A DNA stretch of 33,706 bases from Lachnospiraceae bacterium (GTDB lineage Bacteria; Bacillota; Clostridia; Lachnospirales; Lachnospiraceae): positions 1 to 33,706 of the forward strand of contig JAFSKG010000040.1 of the NCBI GenBank assembly GCA_017449075.1. Reading direction: 5' to 3'. Below, piece after piece: positions 1 through 33,706 of this stretch. How positions within the stretch are numbered: position 1 is the first letter of the stretch; every line of letters begins with the position of its first letter. Made by a program: the position numbers and the translations under genes. Under the pieces are notes generated by a model. It was not told the DNA's origin and did no database searches. It was given only the letters and a program-made list of their open reading frames with translations.

Positions 1-2217
1 TAATGTATTAGTTGTGTTTGTACTTGCAGGTATTCCTGCACCTCCACCACCGCCTCCGCCTCCACCGCCTCCGCCTCCACCACCAGAATAAACACCACAA
101 TGACGTGGAGTAGGAACGATATCTCCCCATAATGCATATAACACCTTAGGAGAAGTTATGTATTCGTTCGGATCGAATTTATTTTGAAATGCTGTGTCGT
201 TATACCAACCAAGAAAATTCTTATTGTTTTTTCTTGGATTCGTTGGAAGACTTAGTTTATTACCCTCTTCTACACTTACACTTGTTATATTTGTTCCACC
301 ATTAGTATTAAAACTTATAAGATGCGATACCTTATTTATACTTGAATTTCTTATAAGACTTATATAACTATTTATAATTCTATTTTGTTGATCCACTAAA
401 TAATTACCTTCTTCATTTAACAATATGAAACTTACTACATTTCTACTGTTCTCATCACTAAATAGTTTTGAACCATCTATTCTTAATTGACATTTGCCAT
501 TATTTAAAGCATATAGCCCATGATTATTATTACTTATTAATTTCTCTCCATTTAGATATACTTGAACAGATTTGGCTCTATGGTCTGTGACATTTAAATT
601 AAGTACTGCATATGTATCATATGGAAGAGCTCCACCTGAACGAAGTTTATTTGCATCATTTATTGTATCTGCTCTAAAATTACCTGTAATTGTTATGGCA
701 CTACTTTTTACATATGGATGAACAGTCATAGTATTTGTATTATCATTTAATAAATCTTCTTCTGTCTTATATATATTATCAAGAACTGTTAATCTTTCAG
801 ATACATTACCATATGGTTGTTCTGTCATATATTGCTCATAATATCCTTCAGCATATTCACTTAAATATGTGCTCTGTTCTATACTATCTCTTAGATTCCA
901 GTATTTCTCGCCTGTCTTTATAAGAAAATAAGGAAAGTTAACCCATTGCTTTGCATAATTTTCTTTATTTGCTCCTGTTAAATTGTCAGAGTTTAGTACC
1001 CAAGTAGGTTTAAAACTTAATTGCTCTCCGCTTGGCGATTTATAATAATACTCTGACACTATGTTATATGTCCTATCCATTATTCTATTATTGACATAAA
1101 AGCTTGCTGCTCTATCTATATTAGTTGTATTAGGATCATAATAGTAATATTCTCCTAGAACTCCTTCATAGCAACTTAGATAATAGAGAACTCCGTATTC
1201 AAATAAGTCATAATTTCCTAAATCAGTATTGTTAAATTCTAAACGGACTTCTATATGGTCAAGTAAGTTTATTCCTTGAGGATTTAGATATCCGTTCCCA
1301 CTATATCTCGCAACTAAATCTTCTACAAAGCCATTAGGTAATAACACATAGTTATCATTACTGCTATCAAAGTCAAAGAACTGCACATTGTTTGCAAGGT
1401 TTAATAATATAGGACTATTACCACTGCTATCCATCATATCTCTTATGACTTTGACATTTGTGTTGCCATTATAATAATTCCCATTATCATCAGATATACT
1501 AACTGTTCCAGCATTTTCACCTGTGTATATCTCGTACCTATCATATGTTGAATGTATAACTACACTTGGGCTTGCTGTTGATGGATGATTGCCAGCATCA
1601 AATAATCCCTCATTAAGCAATGGTGTATCTTCAATTTGGAGTTCTGGTATTTCACTAATTGTTGCTATGTCATTAGTATTTAATGTAACTTCTTCTATTG
1701 TCGACTCCACTATCAGAGTTTCTTCAGTTGATATTTCTTCTACTACTGATTCACTTTCTTTTATGTTTTTATTTATGACTTCATCAAGTACACTCTCTAA
1801 AATATTTAGTGCTTCTTCTTCGTTTGTCTCGCTATTTTCTAAATCACTACTCTCTATAATTGCATTGATTTTCTCAAGTGCCTCTTTCTCATAATCATTT
1901 ATATTTTGCCCACTACTTGTTTCTTCAATGAAATCAATTTGAGCAGTAGATTCAATTGTTTTATCTTCCTCTGGTTCAGTTTCATCCACAACAGTTTCTT
2001 CATTTTCAAAACTATCATTGGAGGATTTTAAATTATCAAAGTCACCACTACTTTCTTCAGTAGTGCTTTCTGCAACACCTATAGATTCATTCGCAGTTGT
2101 GCTTTCTACTACAACATTATCAATACTTGAGTCTTCTGCATATGATGTAATTACCAAACTTATTGTCATAGAAAACATTAAGATGATTGACATTGTCTTT
2201 CTTAAAACTTTTACCAT
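1..2217 (-). CDS. Secreted surface protein with InlB-type repeat and poly-Gly spacer (3' end outside window)
   Basis: The frame is open from an ATG at 2217 to the left edge (739 codons, no stop), so the gene is 3'-partial. GGAGG lies about 8 nt before the start. Residues 1-27 form a signal peptide (MVKVLRK, then a hydrophobic stretch ending SYA). Residues 28 to about 200 are an acidic Ser/Thr/Glu-rich linker with repeated VVEST/EESTT-like segments. The middle 400 residues are not recognised. Near residues 640-700 there is one InlB B-repeat (Flg_new) unit, ISFNTNGG to NFLGWY to LYALW. It is followed by 15 consecutive glycines (bases 40-84) and the start of a new C-terminal region. By family knowledge such proteins are exported and attached to the wall; the anchoring domain would lie beyond the window. 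The acidic linker and poly-Gly spacer resemble those of the giant protease at 23384-33331. The upstream DNA is a candidate invertible promoter, so expression is probably phase variable. Confidence 0.85.
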   Translation of the reverse strand, partial: MVKVLRKTMSIILMFSMTISLVITSYAEDSSIDNVVVESTTANESIGVAESTTEESSGDFDNLKSSNDSFENEETVVDETEPEEDKTIESTAQIDFIEETSSGQNINDYEKEALEKINAIIESSDLENSETNEEEALNILESVLDEVINKNIKESESVVEEISTEETLIVESTIEEVTLNTNDIATISEIPELQIEDTPLLNEGLFDAGNHPSTASPSVVIHSTYDRYEIYTGENAGTVSISDDNGNYYNGNTNVKVIRDMMDSSGNSPILLNLANNVQFFDFDSSNDNYVLLPNGFVEDLVARYSGNGYLNPQGINLLDHIEVRLEFNNTDLGNYDLFEYGVLYYLSCYEGVLGEYYYYDPNTTNIDRAASFYVNNRIMDRTYNIVSEYYYKSPSGEQLSFKPTWVLNSDNLTGANKENYAKQWVNFPYFLIKTGEKYWNLRDSIEQSTYLSEYAEGYYEQYMTEQPYGNVSERLTVLDNIYKTEEDLLNDNTNTMTVHPYVKSSAITITGNFRADTINDANKLRSGGALPYDTYAVLNLNVTDHRAKSVQVYLNGEKLISNNNHGLYALNNGKCQLRIDGSKLFSDENSRNVVSFILLNEEGNYLVDQQNRIINSYISLIRNSSINKVSHLISFNTNGGTNITSVSVEEGNKLSLPTNPRKNNKNFLGWYNDTAFQNKFDPNEYITSPKVLYALWGDIVPTPRHCGVYSGGGGGGGGGGGGGGGAGIPASTNTTNTL

Positions 2218-2270
2218 ATCTTTTCCTCCAATTTTTTTATAACAAAAAATAAACCATATTACCTTTATAG

Positions 2271-2320
2271 TCTGTTGAAATTACCATATTCAATTTTAAT
2301 TTGACTTCAATTTCAACAGA
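2271..2320. repeat. 12-bp inverted repeat in the surface-gene leader
   Basis: TCTGTTGAAATT at 2271-2282 is the exact reverse complement of AATTTCAACAGA at 2309-2320. The right copy overlaps the left recombination site, so the left copy brings an extra CAACAGA half-site. It could be a recombinase-binding half-site, or a hairpin in the 5' leader of the surface-gene mRNA. Confidence 0.6.
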
Positions 2321-2336
2321 ACTTTAAGACTGTTGC
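2314..2336 (+). repeat. Left 23-bp inverted repeat (candidate recombination site)
   Basis: These 23 bases, from CAACAGAAC to GACTGTTGC, are the perfect reverse complement of 2612-2634. Each copy is internally dyadic: CAACAG and CTGTTG arms flank an 11-bp AT-rich centre. That resembles a tyrosine-recombinase crossover site with two recombinase-binding arms. The bases just outside the two copies differ, so the identity is limited to the site. Confidence 0.9.
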
Positions 2337-2398
2337 GAGTTAAAATAAAGTATTTAGTTTTAAGTATTATATTTATGTAAAAATTCTTTGAATAACAA

Positions 2399-2466
2399 TG
2401 CTATGCAATTTTAACATAGCAGTCTTATTTACTATGCTCTTAAAATATAGATTTTATTACATAGCA
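2399..2466. repeat. Cluster of TGCTATG motifs inside the invertible segment
   Basis: TGCTATG occurs at 2399-2405. Its reverse complement CATAGCA occurs at 2415-2421 and 2460-2466, and the near copy CTATGCT at 2432-2438. The first two form a 7-bp stem with a 9-nt loop. Such spaced dyads could bind a regulator or a recombinase accessory factor, or form an mRNA hairpin. No T-run follows, so a terminator is unlikely. Confidence 0.5.
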
Positions 2467-2512
2467 AATATCACTTATAGTTATCCATAAATGAATTCAT
2501 GTCATAAACTGC

Positions 2513-2542
2513 ATTTTATTGCTCATACAAAATTTATGTCAA
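2513..2542 (-). promoter_or_regulatory. Candidate promoter facing the surface gene
   Basis: On the minus strand TTGACA (2542-2537) is followed after 18 bp by TAAAAT (2518-2513). It points left to the surface gene in the present orientation. A transcript would have a leader of almost 290 nt crossing the TGCTATG cluster and the left recombination site. The match is by eye in AT-rich DNA. Confidence 0.45.
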
Positions 2543-2568
2543 TTTATAACAATTATTTAAATTTAATA

Positions 2569-2598
2569 TTGACAAAAATGTCAATTTTGGTGTATTAT
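2569..2598 (+). promoter_or_regulatory. Candidate promoter facing right, away from the surface gene
   Basis: TTGACA (2569-2574), 18 bp, TATTAT (2593-2598), about 14 bp before the right inverted repeat. In the present orientation it fires into the hairpin and T-run at 2610-2641. After inversion it would fire across the left site into the surface gene with a leader of roughly 100 nt. TTGACA-AAAA-TGTCAA is itself palindromic, so a -35 hexamer also exists on the other strand here. Confidence 0.6.
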
Positions 2599-2609
2599 TA
2601 TATTCAGTT

Positions 2610-2641
2610 AAGCAACAGTCTTAAAGTTCTGTTGCTTTTTT
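2610..2641 (+). terminator. Hairpin plus T-run at the right recombination site
   Basis: AAGCAACAG and CTGTTGCTT form a 9-bp stem around a 10-nt loop, followed by a run of T (2636-2641). On the plus strand this reads as an intrinsic terminator just downstream of the right-facing promoter. The T-run lies outside the invertible DNA and would not move with it. Confidence 0.55.
2612..2634 (-). repeat. Right 23-bp inverted repeat (candidate recombination site)
   Basis: Perfect reverse complement of 2314-2336. It lies 6 bp from the recombinase stop codon, which ties the site to that enzyme. Confidence 0.9.
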
Positions 2642-3498
2642 TATTTCTTATACCAAATATCCATTGTTATTCCATATTCTTCAACAGTTTTTCTTAGGTA
2701 TATGAGTGTTGTCTCTGTACTTGAATGTCCAAGTATATTTGCTAATGCTTCAATGTCCTTGTGAATACTATAGTGTTTTACAGCAAATAAATGCCTGAAA
2801 CTATGAGGAAACACAGTATTAGTGTCTACTTCCATCTCTTTTGCTAAGTTCTTTAGCATTCGCCATATACCAAATCTCGTATAAGCATTCCTTCTATTAT
2901 TTAGTATTACTGGACCAGTCTTAATGCCAATTTTTTTACAATATTTTAATAAATCTCTTCTTATGTGCTTATTTAATACTACTTCCCTAATCTTACCTTT
3001 GTTGCTTACTATTATCTTCCCTGCAATTACCATCTCATAAGTAATCTGTCCTATCTCTGATGCTCTAATGCCTGTATTCGCGATAATTTTTGCTACAATT
3101 ACTGCTTTCGCATACTTCTTTTTTCCACATTTAATAAGTCTCTTATAATCAACTTCTTTAACATATCTGCCACTTGGCTTGCAATTCCTTTTAACTATCT
3201 TTAATCTCTTTATAGTAATATTGCCTTTGCCAAGAAACTTTAAAAAGATGTGATTCATTCCTATTTTGCCATTTATTGTATCTGGATTTGTATGTATCTT
3301 TTCAAGATAATCCTTATACTTTATTATGATTTCCTTATCAATCTTAGATATAGTCAAGCCATTTGTGTCATACAGCCATTCCAAAAATTTCCTTGCTTCA
3401 GATAAATACTTTTTGATAGTTTGTTCTCCATTTTCAGCCTCATACCTCAAATAATACTCATACGAACATAGCATTGCCTTTAAATCTTTTTCATTCAT
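2641..3498 (-). CDS. Tyrosine recombinase, likely DNA invertase
   Basis: 285 residues, the usual length of XerC/XerD-type recombinases. The N-terminal SAM-like DNA-binding domain covers about residues 1-95 and the catalytic domain about 110-285. All six catalytic positions can be placed: Arg145 (TGIRASEI), Lys167 (SNKGK), His232 and Arg235 (HSFRH), His258 (LGHSS) and Tyr267 (TLIYLRKT). The enzyme would cut and rejoin DNA through a 3'-phosphotyrosine link. The start is fixed by AAGGAGGTT about 6 nt upstream. Its stop codon is 6 bp from the right 23-bp repeat and no phage genes are nearby, so a local invertase fits better than a prophage integrase. A housekeeping XerC/D role is unlikely, given the divergent sequence and the context. 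A leader with an intrinsic terminator precedes it. Confidence 0.9.
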   Translation of the reverse strand: MNEKDLKAMLCSYEYYLRYEAENGEQTIKKYLSEARKFLEWLYDTNGLTISKIDKEIIIKYKDYLEKIHTNPDTINGKIGMNHIFLKFLGKGNITIKRLKIVKRNCKPSGRYVKEVDYKRLIKCGKKKYAKAVIVAKIIANTGIRASEIGQITYEMVIAGKIIVSNKGKIREVVLNKHIRRDLLKYCKKIGIKTGPVILNNRRNAYTRFGIWRMLKNLAKEMEVDTNTVFPHSFRHLFAVKHYSIHKDIEALANILGHSSTETTLIYLRKTVEEYGITMDIWYKK

Positions 3499-3536
3499 AA
3501 TTGAACCTCCTTAATAATATTTTTCAACATACAAGA

Positions 3537-3564
3537 TAAAAAAAGAGAAGTGTTGCCACTTCTC
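3537..3564 (-). terminator. Intrinsic terminator/attenuator ahead of the recombinase
   Basis: On the minus strand GAGAAGTG-GCAA-CACTTCTC (an 8-bp stem with a GNRA tetraloop) is followed by seven T. It stands about 40 nt before the recombinase start and reads in the same direction. The upstream lipoprotein gene already has its own terminator at 3934-3961, so this one probably acts on the recombinase leader. Confidence 0.8.
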
Positions 3565-3611
3565 AATTTGAATATATCTTTAATATGTAGATTACTAAGG
3601 AAATCTAACCA

Positions 3612-3662
3612 CTATTTATGCCTATATAATAGAGAACGGCATATATTTTTAAATTTATTCAT
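3612..3662 (-). CDS. Possible 16-residue leader peptide
   Basis: An ATG at 3660-3662 opens MNKFKNICRSLLYRHK and ends at TAG (3612-3614). GAAAGGA lies 9 nt upstream and a good promoter (3688-3716) about 25 bp further. The terminator at 3537-3564 and the recombinase follow, as in a transcription-attenuation leader. The peptide is basic and matches no leader I recognise. It is short enough to be chance; the ribosome site and promoter spacing are the support. Confidence 0.4.
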   Translation of the reverse strand: MNKFKNICRSLLYRHK

Positions 3663-3687
3663 TTTTTCTAGTCCTTTCATATATTTC

Positions 3688-3716
3688 ATTATATCATAAT
3701 TAGTCTTCTATATAAA
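3688..3716 (-). promoter_or_regulatory. Candidate promoter for leader peptide and recombinase
   Basis: TTTATA (3716-3711), 17 bp, TATAAT (3693-3688) on the minus strand. The -10 is perfect and the -35 matches 4 of 6. A transcript would start about 20 nt before the leader ATG. Confidence 0.6.
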
Positions 3717-3933
3717 TTAAAATTTTAATACTTGTAAATCGTGTATATATTACAATCATCGCAATAGTAGATTAATAATTTATACTAAAGTTCACTTTAT
3801 TATGATTTCTCATCATCTATATCTATCTACATATTATTTCTTATGTCTACTTACATAAATTTATGTGTATAAGGATGCAAAATATGTATACATTTATTAT
3901 AGCAATAGAGTCGTTTGGGGACTTATGTTGCAA
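3717..3933. other. AT-rich intergenic stretch
   Basis: No gene is seen. The one notable item is a perfect 14-bp palindrome, ACATAAATTTATGT, at 3853-3866, which could be an operator or chance in AT-rich DNA. Confidence 0.4.
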
Positions 3934-3961
3934 TAAAAAATCGGGCATCACTGCCCGATTC
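3934..3961 (-). terminator. Terminator of the lipoprotein gene
   Basis: On the minus strand AATCGGGCA-GTGA-TGCCCGATT forms a 9-bp stem followed by a T-run, 17 nt after the stop codon at 3978. It probably ends the long liv-lipoprotein transcript. Confidence 0.9.
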
Positions 3962-3977
3962 TATGGTTTAGTTATGA

Positions 3978-4889
3978 TTATTTCACAGGAATATACCCTG
4001 CCTTTTTAATATCTTCCTTACCCTTATCAGACAAAATGTAATTATATAATTTCATTGTTTCTGAATCAGCTGGAGTATCTTCTCTTATAACAAGATAATA
4101 CTCATTTAAAAATGGATATTTGCCATCTCCTATAGTCTCATCACTTGGCATAACTCCATCTATAGATATAAGCTCAAGACCTGGAACTGCATACATTTTT
4201 TTAGCATAGTAAAATACACTATAGCCTATCGCATTACCACTATTGTTATATGATGCAAGAGTCTCTATGAGACCATCCATTCCCTCTATACGATATTTTT
4301 TAGGTGCATCAACTGGTGTCACATCTTTCATAACAAGGTTTAAGAAAAGTGTCTGACTTCCACTATTTAAAACTCTCTGATATGCTTCTATCTTTTGGTC
4401 ATCGCCACCGAGTTCCTTCCAATTGGTAATCTTCTCAGTGTAAATGTCTCTAAGTTGCTCTGTTGTCAAATTCTTAACTTTGTTTTGTGCATTCACTATA
4501 AATACAAGTGCATCCACACCGATAGGAGTCACTTTTAATTTTACTGGACTCTTGTCAATTATCTCTTTTGTCTCTGATGATGGCTCATATACTAAAAGTA
4601 AATCTGCATTGCCATCTAAAAGATTTCTCCATGCATAATCAGTAGTTGTAACTTCTGTATTGTTTTCAGCCTCTGTCAAAGTTTCTCCTAAGTAGCTTGA
4701 TCTTATCTGAGCCATCATAGGCATATTAGCTGTAGAGCCGTCTACTCTTGGATAACTTTTTTTCTCGGCAGTTACCTGTGTGGTTTCTTTTGTTGCATCA
4801 GCAGTTGTTTCTGCTACTTTTACCGTATTGCTGCAGGCAAATGTTGCAAATAATAATGTTGCAACAATAGTTAATTTAAAATATTTCAT
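3978..4889 (-). CDS. PstS-like substrate-binding lipoprotein
   Basis: About 303 residues. The N terminus has a hydrophobic segment and lipobox (LLFATFACS), so it should be lipid-anchored outside the membrane. Residues about 48-300 resemble the PBP-like domain of phosphate-binding PstS proteins: VDGSTANMP near the start of the mature domain, LTTEQLRDIYTEKITNWKELGG, and GNAIGYSVFYYA. The family binds phosphate or a related oxyanion. The GSTA segment differs from the classic phosphate-binding GSS/GSG pattern, so the ligand is uncertain. No pst permease or ATPase genes are present; it follows another lipoprotein and the liv genes. The ATG at 4889 is preferred to the TTG two codons earlier because GGAAGG lies 8 nt before it. 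A palindromic repeat abuts the ribosome site. Confidence 0.8.
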   Translation of the reverse strand: MKYFKLTIVATLLFATFACSNTVKVAETTADATKETTQVTAEKKSYPRVDGSTANMPMMAQIRSSYLGETLTEAENNTEVTTTDYAWRNLLDGNADLLLVYEPSSETKEIIDKSPVKLKVTPIGVDALVFIVNAQNKVKNLTTEQLRDIYTEKITNWKELGGDDQKIEAYQRVLNSGSQTLFLNLVMKDVTPVDAPKKYRIEGMDGLIETLASYNNSGNAIGYSVFYYAKKMYAVPGLELISIDGVMPSDETIGDGKYPFLNEYYLVIREDTPADSETMKLYNYILSDKGKEDIKKAGYIPVK

Positions 4890-4903
4890 TTCCAATTCCT
4901 TCC

Positions 4904-4926
4904 GGGCTCGCAGTGCTCGCCCCTAC
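4904..4926 (-). repeat. GTAGGGGCG-family palindromic repeat
   Basis: On the minus strand GTAGGGGCGAGCACTGCGAG followed by CCC, sitting between the two lipoprotein genes and directly before the next gene's GGAAGG ribosome site. The ends GGGCGAGC and GCGAGCCC can pair only in part. It shares its core and placement with the copies at 12604, 19162, 19917 and 22425. Confidence 0.85.
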
Positions 4927-4934
4927 ATACCCAA

Positions 4935-6713
4935 TTAATATTCAGTAACAAATTCTCCAGCGAAGTCTTTTTCGACTGCATCTTCACGCATGGTGTCAAA
5001 TACAGAATAAGTGTAGATAGGTATCCCATCGTAATCCATAAAACCATATTTAAAACCATTTTGGTATGTGAAAAATTTTTCTGTCATATTATCAATGTAT
5101 TTTAAATTGTCAACTACTATATGCAAGTCATTGTTAATTACTCCCATTCTTCCAGTACTTGCATCAGTAAATGGCTTATAATCAGTCTCAATATTATACC
5201 AACCCCTTATTATAAGAGCCCTGCCAGGAATCTCGTTTGCAACTTTTAAATCTTTGTCCAAAAAGTATGTGTTACCTTCTTTAGTTATAACTATATAATC
5301 GTCATAGGCGTAAGTTTCTATTGAGTCAATGTGATCGAGTACTACATTAAAATTCACATCATAGAGTTCAAAGTCTGTTCTACTTGAATAATCGGTAGCA
5401 GTGCCATTTGAAAAGAAGACTTTGTCAAATTTTTCTATCTTTTCTATCATACAATTGGTGTCAAACTTTTTAACTGTTTCCAGTTTCTCATTGTAAACAG
5501 TATTCTTATTAGCAAATATATAGCCCTCTTGAATAAAAGTATTATCAAGACTCTTAAACGTCGCAACCATCTCTAGTTTATCATTATATACATCACAAGT
5601 ATCATCATCAAACATACCTATATCAATACTCTTATGTGCCAAAAATATAACATTTCCATCATGAACAAATGCGTTAACATATTGATATTCGCCACTCTCT
5701 TCTATCTTTCTGGTTAAATCATCATACTTGCTTTGCTCCTCTTGTATCTTTTCCCAATCCGTCTTCTCTTCTACAAAAGGGCGATCTTCACTCACTTTTT
5801 CTCTCTTGCTAAAGTCATAGTCAAAAGCAATTTTTCCTCTTCTTACAGTTAATATAGGAAATGTATCACCATATATCCTCTCATCTATGTCCTCATCAAA
5901 AATAAAATTGTAATTCTCATCAAGATAATTATACTTTCTGCCATCTGAACCATCTTCGTTTTTTACTTTTCGTGACAAATTAACAAGATGCACATTATTT
6001 CTAGTTTCAACACCATTAAGTGAATATCCTTCTATTCTTTTTAACTCATTAAAATTTTCATCGCAAATTATAGTCACTTCTTTTTTATCGTTGCCGTACT
6101 CATCTGTTGACATAATGAATTTTCCGTCAAAAATTTCTAAATTACTATAAGGCAAGGTGGTTGTTTCTTTATTATTTACATTAAATACTTTTAAATCATT
6201 TTCACCATATGTCTCGGAATTATCCCTATATATAATTTTATCTTTTGTTGAACATTTAGCTCCATAGGTATTTGTAGTAAGTCCAACTTCTTTTCCATCC
6301 TTATCAAAGAAAACAGATCTCACTGTCATATCAATGCTCTCGTATGCCGAATCACCTTCTCCATAAGTATGTTTTTCCAATCCTTCCCCACTATACACTT
6401 TATAAATGTAGTTGGTTGTATTAGCATCTATATCTTCAATAATTTCAACTTGCTCAATACTTGGTTCCATTGTTTTGAGAACTATAGTGCCATCACCTTT
6501 TACCAGCATTGTAGTATTTGTCATCGGATTTCTTATAGAATGAATTTTGTTTATAAACTCTGGGTCGCTGGCAACTTTAGATGTTTTATTTTCTGCAATG
6601 TTTTCATTTGTTACTTTGGTGTCAATTTTTGAATTTTTAGTGCAAGAAAATAAAAACAAAGTAGATATAATTATAAACGACAAAATTTTTATAATTTTCA
6701 CAGTGTTTTTCAT
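4935..6713 (-). CDS. Large lipoprotein with WG-like repeats, function unknown
   Basis: 592 residues. The signal peptide ends in lipobox FLFSC (Cys24), so it is probably lipid-anchored on the cell surface. The rest is rich in Asp, Tyr and Asn and contains many short segments of the type YNDKLEMVATF, YNEKLETVKKF, and near the C terminus NGFKYGFMDYDG. These resemble WG/beta-propeller-like repeats, but the assignment is weak. AAAGGTGA precedes the ATG. It begins 9 bp after the livF stop and is followed by the PstS-like gene, so it probably shares the liv transcript. I do not recognise its function; ligand sensing or cell-surface binding are guesses. Confidence 0.7.
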   Translation of the reverse strand: MKNTVKIIKILSFIIISTLFLFSCTKNSKIDTKVTNENIAENKTSKVASDPEFINKIHSIRNPMTNTTMLVKGDGTIVLKTMEPSIEQVEIIEDIDANTTNYIYKVYSGEGLEKHTYGEGDSAYESIDMTVRSVFFDKDGKEVGLTTNTYGAKCSTKDKIIYRDNSETYGENDLKVFNVNNKETTTLPYSNLEIFDGKFIMSTDEYGNDKKEVTIICDENFNELKRIEGYSLNGVETRNNVHLVNLSRKVKNEDGSDGRKYNYLDENYNFIFDEDIDERIYGDTFPILTVRRGKIAFDYDFSKREKVSEDRPFVEEKTDWEKIQEEQSKYDDLTRKIEESGEYQYVNAFVHDGNVIFLAHKSIDIGMFDDDTCDVYNDKLEMVATFKSLDNTFIQEGYIFANKNTVYNEKLETVKKFDTNCMIEKIEKFDKVFFSNGTATDYSSRTDFELYDVNFNVVLDHIDSIETYAYDDYIVITKEGNTYFLDKDLKVANEIPGRALIIRGWYNIETDYKPFTDASTGRMGVINNDLHIVVDNLKYIDNMTEKFFTYQNGFKYGFMDYDGIPIYTYSVFDTMREDAVEKDFAGEFVTEY

Positions 6714-23383: not shown

Positions 23384-26300
23384 TTATACTGTTGCTAGCA
23401 TTTTCCCATCAGCTGCAACTACATATCCATCTGGTGTAGTACCACCAGCTAACATCGAACCATCTTCTTGGAAGTAATACCAGTCATTTTGTATTTTTTT
23501 CCAGCCTATAACCATTTTACCTTCATCTATAGTCTTGGCATTTTCAAAGAAATATGTTTTTCCATCTATTGTTTTTACCCAGCCAGTAACCATATTGCCT
23601 TCAGTATCAATATAATATATATTTTGTACTGCGACTGAAGTAGGTATATCATTTACTGTTTTTGTCTCAGTTGAATTAATTGCAAAAAATCCATTTGTTG
23701 CAGTTGTACTTTGTCCATTTGAATTAATTGTTAGTTTAAATTTATTTGTAACAATATCAAAAGTCCAAGCGGTCAAAGTTGAATCAATAGCATGCATAAC
23801 TGCAGGTTTTGTAGAAGCATTTTCAGTAGTTGTTGGCGCTGGATCACCCTTTGGCAAAGCTCCACCGCCTCCGCCACCACCACCGCCGCCTCCGCCGCCA
23901 CCGCCACCACCGCCGCCTCCGCCGCCACCGCCGCCGCTAGACTCCTTTTCCCACATAGCTTTGAGTGATATATTTGTTGTGATAGTAATTACTTGTTCAT
24001 CATTATATGTAGATCCGTTGCTTGCCTGCCATCCCGTGAAGTAATATTTATCTCGAGTGAATGCATTTTTATTTATTTTAGTTGGTGCTCCTTCATACAT
24101 TGTCTGTTGTGCCATCGTGCCTTTCCCACCATTTGCACTAAATGTCACAGTAAGTGGTTTGCCATATCTTGCATAGAGAATTTTATCTCCATAAATATCT
24201 TTACCTATACTACTTGTATATACTGCTCCGCTATAAACGCCAGTGGTTGCATCGTAGTTTTCATACCAGCCTACTATAGGCACTCCTTCCTTCTTCAAAT
24301 CCATAGGAAGTGCTACACCTTCGCCTGACACATAATAATTTGGATAATTTGCTGGTGCTGTGCCTTCTGTCGCACCATTGTCATTAAGTGATAATGTATA
24401 TCTTATTCCATTCCACTTTGCATACAATGTCTTTGGTCCATTTACTGTGTAATTTGAACCTGCCGCACCTGCTCTAGTAGTACATCCTGCTTCTTCATAC
24501 CAGTTATTGTCAAATGTGAAGCCTGGCACATTAGTTAAAGACTTTAACTCTGTAGTCTGTCCAAGTATCACATCTATATAAGTAGGTTCTGGTATTGTGC
24601 CATGTCCATTTGCATTGTATGTTATGCGAGCCTTCCATCTTGCATAGACATTTACTTCAACAGCATTACTTGTAGTTAAATCAGTGTTACCCGTGTATTT
24701 ATTTGTATCATTTAAATCAGCATTACTATACCAGCCATCAAATGTGTATCCAGTAGGGATGTTTGTTGGATTAGTTAATGTAATAGCTGTGTCATAAGTT
24801 TTTACTTTGTCTGCTGGTGCTGTACCAACTCCATTGACATTATATTTAATCGTATAAGTGTGTGCTGTCCATTTTGCATAAATAGTTGTGCTACCATCAT
24901 TAGTTGATATTATGTCACTTGTTCCATCGTATGGATTGCTATATGTCTTATTGCTTGCATTATAATTTCTAAACCATCCAGCAAAATCATAGCCATCCTT
25001 TGTTGGTGTTGCAAGAGTCTTATTTACACCATAAGTTTTAGATGTATTATTTTCTGATATTGTTACCCCACTCAATACTGTATTATAATTTATTGTATAA
25101 ACATTTGCTGTCCACTTTGCATAGAATGTTGTTGGTCCATCAACTGCAATACCTGATGTGCCACTCATTCCTACATGGTTCGTAAGTCCCTCTTCTCTAT
25201 ACCATCCCCCAAATGTATATCCAGTAGCACTTGTACTTGGAAGTGTAATAGTTGTAGCACTTGTTATCTCAATTGAAGCAGGTTGAGACGCATTTATATT
25301 TGTTCCATTATATTGTACATTAAATACTACCGCTCTCTTCCACTTAGCATATACATATACAGTCGCACCATTTTCATTTGTCAAATCATCTTTACCTTCC
25401 CACTTAGCACCATATGTACTGGTTGTAGAATCATAAGACTTAAACCAACCTAAGAACTCATACCCAGCAGGAATATGTGTTGGGCTTTGCAACTCTGAAG
25501 CTACGAGTGCTGTCGAATATGTTTTTGTAATTGGTGATGGCTTTGTTGCTCCTACTCCTACTAAATTGTAATCAACTGTATATTGATTAGCATTCCACTT
25601 TGCGTAAATTGTATAAGTTTTTGTTCCTTCTACATATATACCATCAGTTGTCTTGTCATATGCTGTAGAAAGTGCACTTGTTGTATACCATCCAGCAAAT
25701 GTGTATCCCACCTTAGTTGGCGCTACTAAATCATCTGCATATGCAGTGTCGTATGTTTTTACAAATGATGTATCGCCAGTTATAGTTCCACCATTCGCAT
25801 TGTAATTTATAGTATAGGTCTTTGCTGTCCACTTAGCATAAATATCATATAATATTGTTCCTTCTACATATATATCATCATTTGATTGATTGTATGGGAT
25901 GTTAAATGTTCCATTATCAGTATACCATCCACCAAATGTATATCCAGTCTTAGTTGGAGTAGTAAGAGATTCACTATATGGAGTATCGAAAGTTTTTGTA
26001 AATGTTGTAGTTCCTGTTAATGTTCCATCATTTAAATTATATTTAATTGTATAGTTCTTTGCTACCCACTTCGCATATATTTCTTTTTCATCATCTTGCT
26101 CATAACTTAAATCTATAGTTCCTGTATAAGGATAATATAAGTTACTATCTTTATACCACTTATCAAATGTATATCCAACTCTTGTAGGAGTATCAAGTGT
26201 TATATCCGTATGGCAAGTCTTTGTAATAGAATCACTACCTAAAGTTCCACCATTTAATACATATTTGATAGTATATGTATTTGCTACCCAATGTGCATAC

Positions 26301-29300
26301 ATACTCATTGGTGCTGTAATAGGAATTAAATCTTTACTATTACCAATCTTAGTTGCAGTACTTGCATCTGGCCCATCATACCAACCTTCCACTCTCCATC
26401 CTGGTTCAGTCTTGTTTGTCATCGTTGGAAGCTCCATTGGCATAGATGGAGTAGCAAGTTCATATTCAAATTTCGTATCACTTGTAGAACTAATATAGAA
26501 TGTTAATGTTATTCCCCACCTTGCATATAATTGCTTTGTATCACCTTGCATATTACTTAAATCTGTTGTTCCATCATAAGCTGTGCCAGTGCATTCTTCA
26601 TTTTCATACCAACCAATGAATCTATATCCCTGTTTAACATTTGTAGGTGAAGGCAAAGTTGCATTTGTGCCATAGGCTTTAGTCAAATCATTTATGTTGT
26701 CTGCGACATTTGCATCTTCCGCATTTAAATTGAATCTTAGTGTGTAAGTATTTGCAGTCCACTTCGCATAAATAGTATATGTACTTGTGCCTTCTACATA
26801 AATATCATCATTTGCCTTGTTATATTCAGTATTAAATGTAGTATTATCTCTAAACCATCCATCAAATCTGCAACCTGTCTTAGTAGGTGCTGCTAAATCA
26901 GAAGTGATTGGTGTGGCAAATGTTTTTTCAAATGATGTATCGCCTGTTATATTTCCACCATTTGCATTGTAATTAATAGTGTATGTCTTTGCAGTCCACT
27001 TCGCATAGATATAATAAGGCGAAGTTTTACCTTCTTCATATATATTATCATTGGCTTTGCTATACTCATTGTCAAATGTTGTGTCGTCAGTAAACCATCC
27101 ATCAAATCTGTAACCTGTCTTAGTAGGTGCTGCTAAATCAGATGTGATTGGTGTGTCAAATGTTTTTTCAAATGATGTATCTCCAGTTATTGTTCCACCA
27201 TTTGCATTGTAATTAATTGTGTATGTCTTTGGATTCCACTTCGCGTAAATATAATATGGAGTAGTTTGACCTTCTACATATATATTATCTGTTGATTTGT
27301 CATATGCTGTTGTTAACGCACTTGTAGTATACCAACCGCCAAATGTGTATCCTGTCCTTGTTGGTACTACTAAGTCATCTGTGATTGCTGTATCATAAGT
27401 TTTCTCAAATGATGCTGGGCTTACACTTGCCCCTGTGCCTGCATTATAATTAATTGTGTATGTCTTTGGAGTCCACTTAGCATAAAGTGTTGTAGGAGCA
27501 CTTGTTGTGAAACTTTCTCCTGCTGCACCTATACGATTACTAGCAGAAAAATCTGTTGCATTATTATACCAACCATCGAATGTATAACCTGTTGCTGTTA
27601 TTGTAGGAAGACTTACGGTTGTTGACCCTACTATTTCTACAGAATCAGGTGCAGTGCCGTGCCCATTTGCATTATAAACTAAAGCTGTCTTCCACTTTGC
27701 ATATACAGTCTCTGTAGCACCATGCTCATTTGTTAAATCATCACCATTCCACTTATTATTAAACTCTGGTTCTTTATACCAACCTAAAAACTCATAACCT
27801 GCGGCAATATTTGCAGGTATTGGCAAATCACTTGATGAAATATTTACCCCATAAGATTTTGTTATTGGATTAACTACATCTGCAGTAACTCCTCTTAAAT
27901 CAAATTGCACTGTATACTTATTTGGTTCCCAGCTTGGAACTAAATCTATTTCGTCACCCTTATCAGTAGTTAAATCGGTATCTCCAAAATATCTTTCATA
28001 CGGATTGCCATCAAAATCCACAGTCCACCAGCCAGCGAATTGATGATTTGGCTTTGATGGGGTTGCAAGCATTATAGGAACGCCATAAGTTTTAGTTACT
28101 GGATTTACTACTCCATCTGGTAATTTTTCTCCCAGTCCGGCAAGTAAATAATAATTAATTGTATAAGTAATAGGCTTCCACTTTGCATAATAAGTCTTGT
28201 CGCCTTCTAAAGAGTTCCTAGATATTACTGAAATCCTTTCTCCTGAAAAATCAGGATACTCATACCAACCTTCGAAACTATTACCTTCTTTTTTAATACG
28301 AGTTACTCCATTATTAGGCATATAGAATGATTCATTAAATATTCTATCCGCTGGATTTACAAAACCGTCAACCCAAGTTCCACCATTTTCTACAAAATGG
28401 ACTTTATATCTACCTACCTCCCACATCGCTTTCATAGTGTGGCTAGTGTAGTATGTATTAGCATAACCCATTGCAGAAAATCTACGCCCAGAAGGAATTT
28501 CACTCATTTCACCAAGATTACCTCCACCTACTTCATAACGCCAAGTTCTCAATGTATGTCCATATTTATACACATTACTTGGAGTCGGTAGTAAAAATGT
28601 CTCATTAAACATTTTATAATCTCTTGGTGTAAATCCATCTACCCATGACCCGCCATCTAAATCATAGCTAATCTTCTCTTTTGCCTCTCCCTTTATTGGA
28701 TAAAGATTAATTATTTTTCTTTCATCACTCACTGATATAGTCGTTATAGTTTCACCAGTTTCAACATCCTTCCATGCTACTACTTCTGTTCCAGTATAAT
28801 CATATTGTGGATTATTATTTGCCCACACAGGGTCTGTGGCATTAGGAAGAATATATTCTTCTCCATATCTTCTTTTTCTTGTTTCTTTTGGGTTAAAATG
28901 GATTGTCCAATTGTATTCAGTTTCATAGAAGGCCACTTCATACTCATTTCCTATCCAAGTAGCTTCAAAAGTTATGTCATCTTCCACAATAAAACTATTA
29001 AAATCAACTGCTGTATTTGTTCCTTTTATAACCCATTTGTCAAATGTATAATGTGCTCTTGTAGGTGCTGATGGTGTTGCCATTTTATTACCTAATGGTA
29101 TAGATACAGTTCTAGTATCTCCTCCATCATAACCACTCTCAAGCGTTACAGTTTTCTTTTCACCTGGTTCAAGTATATTTAAATCTAATGTACAAGACTT
29201 TCCAAGGAAAGTTATTGTCACTTGATTATCACCCTCTGTCATTATATGGTCTTTCTCAATGCTTGTGTCAATATGATCTTCATTTCCGTCATAAGTTATA

Positions 29301-32300
29301 GTCTTGTAATAAGCTTGATCTTTAAGTTCCCCATCCGAATTATAAGTATAGTTTGTTACTTTTATAACAAGACCTGTAGGATCGAATCTATCTTCACCTT
29401 TTACATAGTCTAGTTTAAGAGGTGCATTCACTACTTCTATACTATCCGCTTCACCAAATTCAGAGAATACATAAAAATATCTTCTTGAACCATGACTATA
29501 ATTCATGCCATAAACTCTTAAATATTTACCTCTGTAATATGCATCAAAATAATTATCATTATCTTTATGATTTACTAAATTTTCATCCGACATTGTGACA
29601 TTTCTAAGTCCTTTGTAGCCTTTATCTCCACAAGTATCTTCATCCATACCATGTTTGTATAGAGCAATGTCGTTGATAGATTTATCCAAATCTAGTGTAG
29701 AGCCTGTAGCAACCCAATATGATATGAGCACCGGATGATCTTTAAAGAAATTTTTTGGGGTTTCGAAATCTTCCCAATCAGTTGCATCTCCTATGAAACT
29801 AGTGTTATATGCCAATGCAGGTTTGTCAAGTGGCAAATAATTTGCTCTATCATTTATATCAGCTATATCAATTTCATATGCATCCGTTGTATTACCATCA
29901 AACATTACAACATTATTATCATAAGACAAATCTCCAGTATATAAAACTGAGACAAACGACCTATCTCTAACTTTATCATCCTTTGTCAAGTAGTTGGTCT
30001 TTGCAGAGAAATCAGCTTTATTTAAATCACTATACGTAACCTCTGTAGTTGTATCATCTCTAAAATATAATTTAACTTTTAGACCTGTCAAATCAATAGT
30101 GTCACCAACATTATAATTTCTTCTTGTAGGTGCAGCTAAGCCTTCGATTTTTCTAATTCTCTTCTTATCCCAACTAGCTTTAAGTGTTCTATTTTTTCCA
30201 TCTCTTATATGGAAAGCTGTATTAAAGTCAAACTCTACATTTTCACCAACCTTTACATCATACCAATGATGGAAAATGTATCCTGCTGCAACTGGGTCAT
30301 CAGGCTTTTCAACTTTTTGATGATTCTCAACAAGTCTTGTAAAGTTTTCTCCTTTACCACCTAAGTCAAAAGTTACTGTCACATAACCACTTATAGTAAA
30401 ATAACCTTGTGAACCTTCTACATCTATCCTTGCATAAGTTTTATCTTTTGGATTTGTTGCGCTATACTCTGTACCATTACCACCTACAATTTTAAGACAG
30501 CCCTCAAACATATTGTCGCTTGAAGTTACAGAATTTGTAATAAATGTAGATGATGCATATATAGTTTGTAAGTTTTCACAGTCCCAAAATAATCCTTCCA
30601 TATTAGTTACATTTTGAGTATTAAAACTACTTATGTCAAGCGCCTCTATATTTTTAACACCATAGAACATAAATCCTATATCAGTTGCATTTTCTAATGT
30701 GAAACCTTCAAGATTTATATGTCTAAGATTTCTTGGATACATTTCATTATATCCGCAGAACATAGAGTTTGCATTTTGAAGCGAGCTTGTATCAAATGTG
30801 CTAAGGTCTATACTCTCGAGCATACCACACATAGCAAACATTCCTTGCATATTGACTACATTGCGTGTATCAAAGCTAGCCACATTTACAGTTGCTATTG
30901 CAACCGAATCAAACATATTTGACATGTCTACTACTTTACTTGTATCAAAACTTGTCACATCAATAGTTAAACTTCTTGGATTGTCAATCATCTTGCTGTC
31001 TTCTCCTTCATTTGTAAACATAAGATTCCATCCAAGACCAGAGAACATATGGTTCATGTTTGTAGAATTGCTCGTATCAAGATACTCAAGACCGCTTATC
31101 TCTTCGCAATTTTTAAATGCATTATCTAGGTCATACCCATAGACTCCCTTGCTCGAAAACATATATGAACTATCTTCTGGCAAATATATATTTCCATTAT
31201 TTGGTGCATAAATGTAAACTTCTGTTCCTTTGATATAACCTTTTAATCCATCACTTCCTGTTATTTCCCATTCATAGTCAAAATCAGTTGGTGCTGAATC
31301 AGGATAAACTTGTATTTTGATTTTAGTAATTTGGCTTTTAGACGCAGTTGTATTATCAAACCAAGTATATGGCAAATGATAAACTACTTCTTCCCACTTA
31401 GCTTTAAGTGTAACATTATCAACAACTTCTATCTCATCTTCGTCATCATATTCATTGCCATCACCATCCACCCAGCCAATAAATTTACAACCTTTCTTAG
31501 TAAAAGTATTTTTTGGCAATTTAACAATTTCACCTGGTGTTGCTATTATGCTTTCCATAAAACCTTCACCGCCATTAGAATCAAAAGATACTAATCCAGT
31601 TTCATTAGTAAGCGCTCTAATTCTAAAGTTGCTGCCATAAAGCATTCCATCTCTTCTAAAAGTTCCATCTCTATTCAAGTCTATCCATTCACCTGTACTA
31701 TTATCCTTATATAAACTTTGTCCAAGTGCAATTTCATTCATACTTGGTCTATCAATAGTTTCTGATCCATAATCTACAGATTCATCTACAAGCAATTTAA
31801 CGTCGTCTGGCAAACTTAAAACTATAGAGAAATATGTATCCTTCTTTAAACTTATACTGCTATTGAGCGGGATGGTAAATATTCCCTGCCCAGCATGAGT
31901 CATATTTTGCGTAAGTCTAAGTTCACCATCAGCTGGGTTTTTCATAGCTATATCGCTAGTATATATTTTTATCTTACCACCATTTATTGGTGAATAATGA
32001 GCAATATTAACTGCATCTAATTTTTGATTTGCTTCACCTGTTACCTTAAAAATATTTCCAACTTCAGTTGTATTTAAGTGACCTATACTATCTAAATATC
32101 CTGCTGAAGCTGTTGTGTCATAATGATAATTATATTTATAAGTGTCAGCCTCAACTACATCTATAGCATATATGTTATTATCTATAGACAAGTCATAGTA
32201 TGATAACCAAAAATATCCTTCTTTTGCTGTTTTATATGGTGAAATTGAGTTTTCATCTCCCCAGCTATTTCTGATAAGCCATGCACCAGGACCTTCTGGG

Positions 32301-33331: not shown

Positions 33332-33565
33332 TTCACTTTCAGTTGCTATGCTTATTTCATTATCAACTATAGCAGCTTCGCTTGATGAATCTGTCTCATC
33401 TTCTACAACTGCTTCACTTGTTGAGTCTGTCTCGCCTTCAACAACTGCTTCACTTGTTGAGTCTGTCTCGCCTTCTATAACAATTTCACTTGTTGAGTTA
33501 GACTCTTCTTCTACAACTGATTCACTTGTTGAATCTGTATCATCTTCTATGACAGTTTCACTTGT
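33332..33565 (-). repeat. Six 36-bp tandem repeats encoding the acidic linker
   Basis: Units of 12 codons encode TSETVIEDDTDS, TSESVVEEESNS, TSEIVIEGETDS, TSEAVVEGETDS, TSEAVVEDETDS and SSEAAIVDNEIS. They lie in frame with the giant protease but upstream of its first ATG. The pattern breaks at the presumed insertion-sequence boundary. Confidence 0.85.
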
Positions 33566-33706
33566 TGTATATAAGTCAATATAATTAGTAATAGTTAGTA
33601 CGAATTATTTTAACTTGCATATCTTTTCTGAAATGGAGTTAAGTAATTAAGAGAAGCATGCTTTCTCTTGTGATTGTAAGTGACATATGCAAAGTTATTT
33701 ATGCCA
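33566..33706 (-). mobile_element. End of an insertion sequence truncating the giant gene
   Basis: The transposase tail ends at 33610, and about 45 bp follow before the 36-bp coding repeats begin. TG at 33566 is a plausible IS terminus because the repeat pattern stops there. The other end lies outside the window, so terminal repeats and target duplication cannot be checked. Confidence 0.65.
33610..33706 (-). CDS. DDE transposase C-terminus, IS3/IS481-like (5' part outside window)
   Basis: The frame from the right edge reads INNFAYVTYNHKRKHASLNY then LTPFQKRYAS and stops at 33612-33610. YNHKRKHASLNYLTP is the typical end of the rve/DDE integrase core in IS3- and IS481-type transposases. Only about 31 residues are visible, so the family is not settled. 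Confidence 0.75.
   Translation of the reverse strand, partial: GINNFAYVTYNHKRKHASLNYLTPFQKRYAS

Follow-up and report, generated by a model that had tools for sequence, protein, structure and literature searches.

The window, i.e. the whole stretch of 33,706 nucleotides analysed here, from a relative of gut Clostridia, very probably harbors an invertible promoter that serves as a phase-variation switch and is flipped by the adjacent tyrosine recombinase. The organization of the locus is presented in Table 1. According to the proposed mechanism, the recombinase would recombine the two 23-bp sites and thereby flip the 275-bp segment. As assembled, the main promoter is predicted to fire rightward, in the direction of the recombinase gene's 3' end, the right site together with its T-run could end this rightward transcription, the hairpin within the segment could stop read-through from the recombinase gene, and the surface gene would be OFF. 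In the flipped orientation the promoter would read across the left site and the leader and transcribe the surface gene (ON), and the two orientations would represent transcriptional ON and OFF states. A promoter-inversion switch had already been proposed in the first-pass annotation, and this reading is supported by the junctions of a second locus in the same genome, opposite segment orientations in congeners, the single site of a congener (G005:C84) and the layout found in relatives. The locus represents a new and well-supported example of an established switch type, in which some details of the terminators are unusual.

Table 1. Features of the switch locus and the basis of their assignment.
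Feature	Position	Strand	Basis and remarks
Surface protein, putatively secreted; 5' part of target gene, List_Bact repeat	1..2217	-	runs off window start
Ribosome-binding-site-like GGAGG before start codon	2225..2229	-	read from sequence
ON-leader hairpin 2, weak terminator-like; stem 2253-2258/2266-2271, T-rich tail 2243-2252	2243..2271	-	RNAalifold
ON-leader hairpin 1; 5' arm takes in six left-site bases	2272..2319	-	pattern at four loci
Left recombination site (inverted repeat arm)	2314..2336	.	exact arm match, site copies, site matrix
Putative invertible segment, 275 bp	2337..2611	.	bounded by arms; similarity to second locus
Terminator-like hairpin inside segment	2399..2421	-	hairpin scan; reads from recombinase towards surface gene
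Leftward promoter-like site, judged not functional	2513..2542	-	broken at second locus (L005)
Main promoter TTGACA-18-TATTAT; points away from surface gene as assembled	2569..2598	+	promoter scan, comparison
Terminator-like hairpin from right site; 9 pairs, loop 10, T-rich tail	2610..2647	+	reads from segment towards recombinase
Right recombination site (inverted repeat arm)	2612..2634	.	exact arm match, site copies, site matrix
Tyrosine recombinase, 285 aa, presumed to act on both sites	2641..3498	-	ORF, Pfam, alignment

Structure of the locus

The two arms of the inverted repeat (23 nt each) are 100% complementary and enclose a gap of 275 nt; the right arm and the recombinase gene's 3' end are 6 bases apart, and the left arm is located 96 bases from the start of the surface protein (2217, minus strand). 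These coordinates confirm the earlier description of a perfect 23-bp repeat around 275 bp between both genes. It represents the longest inverted repeat of the whole window at a spacing of 80-500 bp, the next three having 12 bp, and the longest repeats in 60 dinucleotide-preserving shuffles of the window ranged from 11 to 14 bp, in line with the previous statement that a chance origin is very unlikely. The repeat had not been recognised from described switches, but it falls in a recognisable site class, namely, ACA(T/G/A)AAT in a dyad around 4 bp. Based on a site matrix derived from the loci of other genomes, the arms rank third and fourth among all 22-mers of the window.

The surface-protein ORF is open over the 739 aa seen and incomplete at the window start. 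The List_Bact repeat (PF09479) is its sole Pfam match, the N-terminus, as judged by eye, suggests that the protein is secreted, and it exhibits 90% identity to a congener's protein over 454 aa. The recombinase matches the Phage_integrase family (PF00589, E 1.2e-16). R145, K167, H232, R235, H258 and Y267, which we take to be the six catalytic residues of a tyrosine recombinase, do not vary among 16 aligned relatives, as expected from the claim that all six are present. The enzyme probably flips the window locus, the pairing of recombinase and site being by position only.

A second locus in the same genome

The exact 23-mer is present in four copies in the assembly, namely, as an inverted pair at the window locus and as an inverted pair at a second locus (C28, L005), and the DNA between the sites of the latter is 69% identical to the window segment in the same orientation. 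Past its right site the C28 contig continues with exactly 119 nt that represent the reverse complement of its own left site and flank. The contig contains junctions of both orientations, as if both had been read; alternatively, its tail may have arisen by fold-back copying or reflect a genuine inverted duplication. A further recombinase, 84% identical to that of the window, begins another contig of the same genome. The switch had been described as self-contained, but it may not be, because of the identical sites and the 84% identical recombinase elsewhere in the genome.

The alternative scenario of a former switch that is now locked, with recombinase and sites intact and a segment that no longer flips here, would account for the fact that the contig crosses the window locus in one orientation and that an exact-site search of the assembly revealed no inverted junction of this locus; locked relatives with a single site also exist (see below). 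It is nevertheless improbable, given that the arms of both loci still share one identical sequence while the DNA between them has diverged, that the six key residues are kept and that both kinds of junction have been assembled at the second locus.

Conservation of the recombinase-repeat layout

The functional switch predicted for the window has a layout that is common among recombinase relatives, most of which bear titles of Clostridia groups. A repeat of 14 bp or more is located 3' of the recombinase in 49 of the 59 loci from other genomes (a count that includes L111, whose repeat is unlike the others, with N runs left in) and 5' in one of 79, compared with 4 of 456 control windows; an exact repeat is absent in 10 of the 59 relatives. 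Contigs end within 500 bp of the recombinase on its 3' side in 19 of 80 loci, six in or at a site, and on its 5' side in none of 80. Under a strict rule, and with the doubtful L111 omitted, 38 of 50 cassettes yielded a candidate target ORF; in two the contig came to an end, and ten were without a target by this rule.

Both arms are dyads in their own right, and the right one looks like a terminator when its T-run is included; the repeats might accordingly be only a terminator pair or regulator-binding dyads around an ordinary promoter, with the recombinase as an unrelated neighbor. The excess of repeats 3' of the recombinase (49/59 relatives versus 4/456 control windows) and the presence of segments that are inverted between their arms in congeners make this explanation very unlikely.

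Orientation of the segment and locked loci in the genus

Recombination between the arms, as assumed for the window, is also suggested by the comparison of congeners; the site itself was searched in the window's own genome and in 12 genomes of the genus. One example is the pair G005:C53 and G006:C35, whose recombinase genes are 93% identical and whose segments exhibit 86.6% identity in inverted but 57.7% in direct orientation. A search of related genomes for both orientations beside the same recombinase had been proposed, and this pair documents opposite orientations beside closely similar recombinase genes. Among the 14 cassettes of the genus 26 pairs of segments are homologous; 21 of them run the same way and five are inverted, all five with G006:C35. 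Another example is G005:C84, where a 90% identical surface protein is located behind one site with the promoter side facing the gene; it is by comparison with this locus that the window is read as OFF. Even with 3 mismatches allowed, its genome contains no second site, and its contig has no recombinase match. G005:C84 and G000:C8 both retain one site only and thus represent the locked relatives.

Cassettes with different sites precede related genes within the genus, therefore cassettes are gained or exchanged. Such gain or exchange would also suit repeats that delimit a mobile element moved by the recombinase or serve as its attachment sites, an idea that is scarcely credible since the recombinase gene is not part of the segment between the repeats, either in the window or in the cassettes that were examined, and the segment keeps its place but differs in orientation. 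A single genus contains related genes behind different site/recombinase pairs or a single leftover site, and this variety allows the gain, exchange and freezing of switches to be studied side by side.

Comparison with known systems

In the fim switch of E. coli about 300 bp of DNA contain the promoter, genes of tyrosine recombinases are found nearby and the target is a surface structure. Its repeats are shorter than 23 bp and two recombinases act on them, whereas the window has one recombinase and 23-bp dyad sites. The window locus resembles cwpV of Clostridium difficile in its clostridial host, the tyrosine-recombinase type of inversion, the large surface protein as target and the idea of a terminator in the OFF state: the tyrosine recombinase RecV inverts a stretch of about 200 bp, bounded by 21-bp repeats, upstream of this large cell wall protein, and a terminator has been proposed for its OFF state (PMC2784873). 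In that system the cwpV promoter lies outside the inverted segment and recV is not near cwpV, whereas at the window the promoter is internal and the recombinase adjoins the right arm.

The closest published kind is inverton group 139 of Clostridia with invertase group 35 (PMC11892184, Microbiome 2025), likened by layout and host and not by site motif. The group comprises 33 invertons, 32 of them from Clostridia, and nearly all have a tyrosine-type recombinase of one group nearby; the window likewise has a tyrosine-type recombinase next to its putative inverton, also in Clostridia. One of its examples has, by its coordinates, arms of 26 bp and a gap of 205 bp, which is within the range seen here. 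Terminators and leaders are absent from the description of the group in the consulted part of that study, whereas the window has candidates for both. Of the 15 Firmicutes samples in which another study found inversions by read mapping, 14 were Clostridia (PMC5903667); in the portion considered, the clostridial targets are mostly signalling and chemotaxis genes, whereas the target of the window is a surface protein. Among open-licence PMC papers, judged by title and start of the abstract, none was recognised as reporting phase variation of a type IV secretion system or the use of a recombination site as a terminator.

Promoters, terminators and leader

The C28 site precedes an operon similar to those of VirB4-type secretion. 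A large surface protein and, at the second locus, a type IV secretion-like operon would be under the control of a recombinase-linked flipping promoter of a kind that recurs across Clostridia. We tentatively consider a wider reading, which is rather doubtful as a whole. The 23-bp site might have a triple role as crossover, as recombinase-side terminator in the OFF state and, in the ON state, as 5' arm of a leader hairpin that is conserved and precedes a terminator-like one, coupling inversion to RNA-level attenuation. Because an identical site also precedes the VirB4-type-like operon, one recombinase could moreover switch surface protein and secretion machine at the same time, or swap flanks from one locus to the other. 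A possible dual use of one DNA site in recombination and transcription termination thereby becomes testable.

The main promoter lies inside the segment and is predicted to be able to read over the arm into the gene, as expected for an inverton. Both of its hexamers are kept at C28, its counterpart at C8 is TTGACA-17-TAATAT, and in G005:C84, read as locked ON, the -10 side is kept while TTGACA is absent at the corresponding place. Two outward promoter-like sites had initially been described. The rightward one, kept at the second locus, stands, but the leftward one is broken there and for this reason judged not functional; it would also run into the terminator-like hairpin within the segment. 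Promoter-like sites are not unusual as such in this region (13 versus 9.8, sd 2.7, in shuffles), and promoter calls failed in 34 of 65 cassettes, a set in which the L005 row takes its recombinase side from the chimeric contig tail and the L048 row is without target flank.

The hairpins of the locus may terminate transcription. That of the right site was missed in the first hairpin scan, which allowed loops of 3-8 only. The arm hairpins of the 14 genus cassettes were surveyed with mononucleotide shuffling as control. An outward hairpin with a T-run at the recombinase-side arm is present in five of them (window, L040, L041, L042 and L048) and in a weaker form in L046; L044 has a hairpin with a T-run at the target-side arm instead, and arm hairpins reading into the segment occur in L046, L047, L050 and L052. 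This mixed pattern counts against the terminator idea.

In the ON leader, two pairs of hairpin 2 are changed on both sides across four loci (RNAalifold), a value that is reached by 66 of 500 shuffles, and Rfam gave no match in positions 1-6000 of the window up to E 0.5. The pattern of hairpin 1, which has 11 pairs, was found at four loci among 12 genomes, compared with 0 for the reversed-pattern control. It is perfect at two complete switches and altered at two locked loci by changes from U-A to U-G, and all three changes keep G-U pairs. Hairpin 1 could also be an extra half-site of the recombinase rather than an RNA structure.

Structure of the switch and its nearest relatives

The first-pass annotation had placed a perfect inverted repeat between a surface-protein gene and a recombinase gene, and this placement is borne out: the two 23-nt arms are 100% complementary and lie 275 nt apart. 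Its judgement that chance is an unlikely source holds as well: when the whole window was shuffled 60 times with dinucleotides preserved, the longest repeats at a spacing of 80–500 bp measured 11–14 bp. To the right lies a minus-strand gene for a tyrosine recombinase of 285 aa, which matches PF00589 and whose best NCBIfam models are XerA, XerD and XerC, every one under its cut-off. The closest solved relatives of the recombinase alignment are XerC-like, XerA and XerD proteins, and residues R145, K167, H232, R235, H258 and Y267 show no variation across 16 aligned relatives. To the left begins a secreted-looking protein carrying a List_Bact repeat; a relative of it (79% over 619 aa) is encoded near another switch in the congener G005 (contig C53).

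DNA inversion in Clostridia is established (PMC5903667; PMC2784873), and we class the window switch with the invertible promoters, as a new member. It probably belongs to the nearest described set, inverton group 139 with invertase group 35 (PMC11892184). From the cwpV switch, as portrayed in PMC2784873, it differs in the promoter position and in the recombinase of its own that adjoins it.

Features of the window and of related loci (L-numbers denote loci of relatives; C-numbers without a genome are contigs of the window genome)
Feature	Position	Strand	Remark
Left arm	window 2314-2336		
Right arm	window 2612-2634		
Predicted segment promoter	window 2569-2598	plus	
Leftward promoter-like site	window 2542-2513	minus	not conserved at C28
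3315-aa protein	window 23384-33331		19 List_Bact repeat stretches, papain-like domain, DUF285, choline-binding repeats
Right window edge	window 33406-33706		assembly-breaking repeat; exact 141-mer in common with right edge of C11
IrrE-like metallopeptidase gene (PF06114)	L014:1672-2256 (C11)		behind second recombinase; housekeeping genes follow
Chromosomal operon	L158:1-12569 (C8); L047:5358-16001 (G005:C17)		VirB4-like (CD1110 family), PrgI-like and pilin-like products; preceded by single decayed site in C8, by complete switch with different site in G005:C17
Recombinase remnant	L057:5025-5288 (G002:C60)		short; 56% identity over query residues 1-63; TAG within match
Switch-adjacent ORFs	L128:7059-7910; L098:7230-8051		resemble another recombinase by first residues
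Segment with TTGACA/TATAAT promoters	L100:6771-7251		promoters face outward near both ends

A second locus with identical sites

The genome assembly (1.64 Mb, 49 contigs, 76% complete) contains the exact 23-mer four times, twice in the window and twice in contig C28, where the two copies form an inverted pair separated by 268 bp; no further copy was found with up to 3 mismatches allowed. The inner segments of both loci share 69.4% identity in the same orientation and 57.3% when inverted, and the target-side flanks 64.2%, so that the sites are conserved far more than their surroundings. Contig C11 starts with a recombinase 84% identical to that of the window (protein), its end cut by the contig edge, and C28 likely adjoins C11 in the genome.

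Past its right site, C28 repeats its own left site and flank exactly in reverse complement, over at most 119 nt (23 of site, 96 of flank). This junction fits the expected product of a population holding both orientations, but it would also arise from fold-back copying with the repeat as primer or from a true inverted duplication. A common assembler has 119 among its steps. Exact 141-mers are common to eight contig-edge pairs among the 42 of 49 contigs compared (139 in two pairs), which points to de Bruijn assembly; left out of this count were C21 and C41, probably masked contigs that match one another along the whole length tested.

In its first three products the C28 operon shares 32–40% identity with C8 and G005:C17. 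Next in the C8 operon comes a VirB4-like ATPase of the CD1110 family (465 bits, cut-off 325), 95% identical to that of G005:C17, and a PrgI-like protein scores above cut-off in G005:C17 and slightly below in C8; visual inspection of the listed ORFs of both operons revealed no relaxase. As C28 ends before any visible ATPase, its operon would have a secretion role by resemblance. First genes of this kind also sit behind switches with other sites in the genus (L047, L051, L054).

Orientation of the segment

In G005, a protein encoded on contig C84 matches the window surface protein at 90% identity over 454 aa. Its gene lies behind a single exact site, with the promoter's −10 side turned towards it; TTGACA is absent at the corresponding place, with one copy further upstream. 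Neither a second site in G005 (up to 3 mismatches) nor a recombinase match on that contig was found. In C8, where no recombinase match was found, the operon is preceded by TTGACA-17-TAATAT, a single decayed site and a similarly formed leader. By comparison with these two loci, the window promoter faces away from its gene, so that the assembled orientation would be OFF. Promoter calls in 51 cassettes of the wider family gave 17 OFF, 7 ON and 27 uncalled, those in 14 genus cassettes 7 OFF and 7 uncalled. The L100 segment may serve both sides alternately.

Recombinase matches (E up to 0.001, some weak) occur in 9 of 12 genus genomes, the window genome included; beside the G002:C60 remnant no repeat pair was found. 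Opposite orientations occur in two congeners: the segments of G006:C35 and G005:C53, whose recombinase genes share 93.0% identity, are 86.6% identical inverted versus 57.7% direct. Of the 26 homologous segment pairs among the 14 genus cassettes, 21 share one orientation with respect to the recombinase; all five inverted pairs involve G006:C35.

Hairpins and leaders

The right arm and the following T-run form a 9-pair hairpin with a T-rich tail directed towards the recombinase; mononucleotide shuffling predicts 0.03 such hairpins for each strand of a segment. The same arrangement recurs in L040, L041, L042 and L048, more weakly in L046, and on the target side instead in L044. Across 65 cassettes, the ten bases beyond the arm included at least seven T 14 times on the recombinase side versus once on the target side (mean T counts 4.4 versus 2.9; Wilcoxon p 5e-4). 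The window segment has an additional hairpin directed towards the surface gene.

The predicted ON leaders of the window, C28, C8 and G005:C84 form a pair of hairpins; the first takes in part of the site and has a pattern confined to these four loci among 12 genomes. In this structure 98.5% of the 68 cells are paired, with changes on both sides at two pairs, but 66 of 500 shuffles do as well, so the leader structure is suggestive only.

The wider recombinase family

The recombinase-alignment scan took the best 80 of 536 relatives (32–38% identity), titled mostly Lachnospiraceae, Oscillospiraceae and other Clostridia, with one Collinsella. Of these, 59 loci have 700 bp of flank, and 49 (one doubtful) carry an exact repeat of 14 bp or more 3′ of the recombinase, with none in ten; 5′ of it the count is 1 of 79 (control windows 4/456). 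Within the same best 80, contig ends lie at most 500 bp from the recombinase 3′ end in 19 loci and from the 5′ end in none (p 4e-6), in agreement with assembly graphs branching at the site, and six contigs stop in or at a site. The half-site consensus, drawn from 45 of 51 cassettes showing a clear dyad, is ACA(T/G/A)AAT on either side of 4 bp. By consensus score, two places of no known meaning lead all window 22-mers, followed by the two window arms in third and fourth place.
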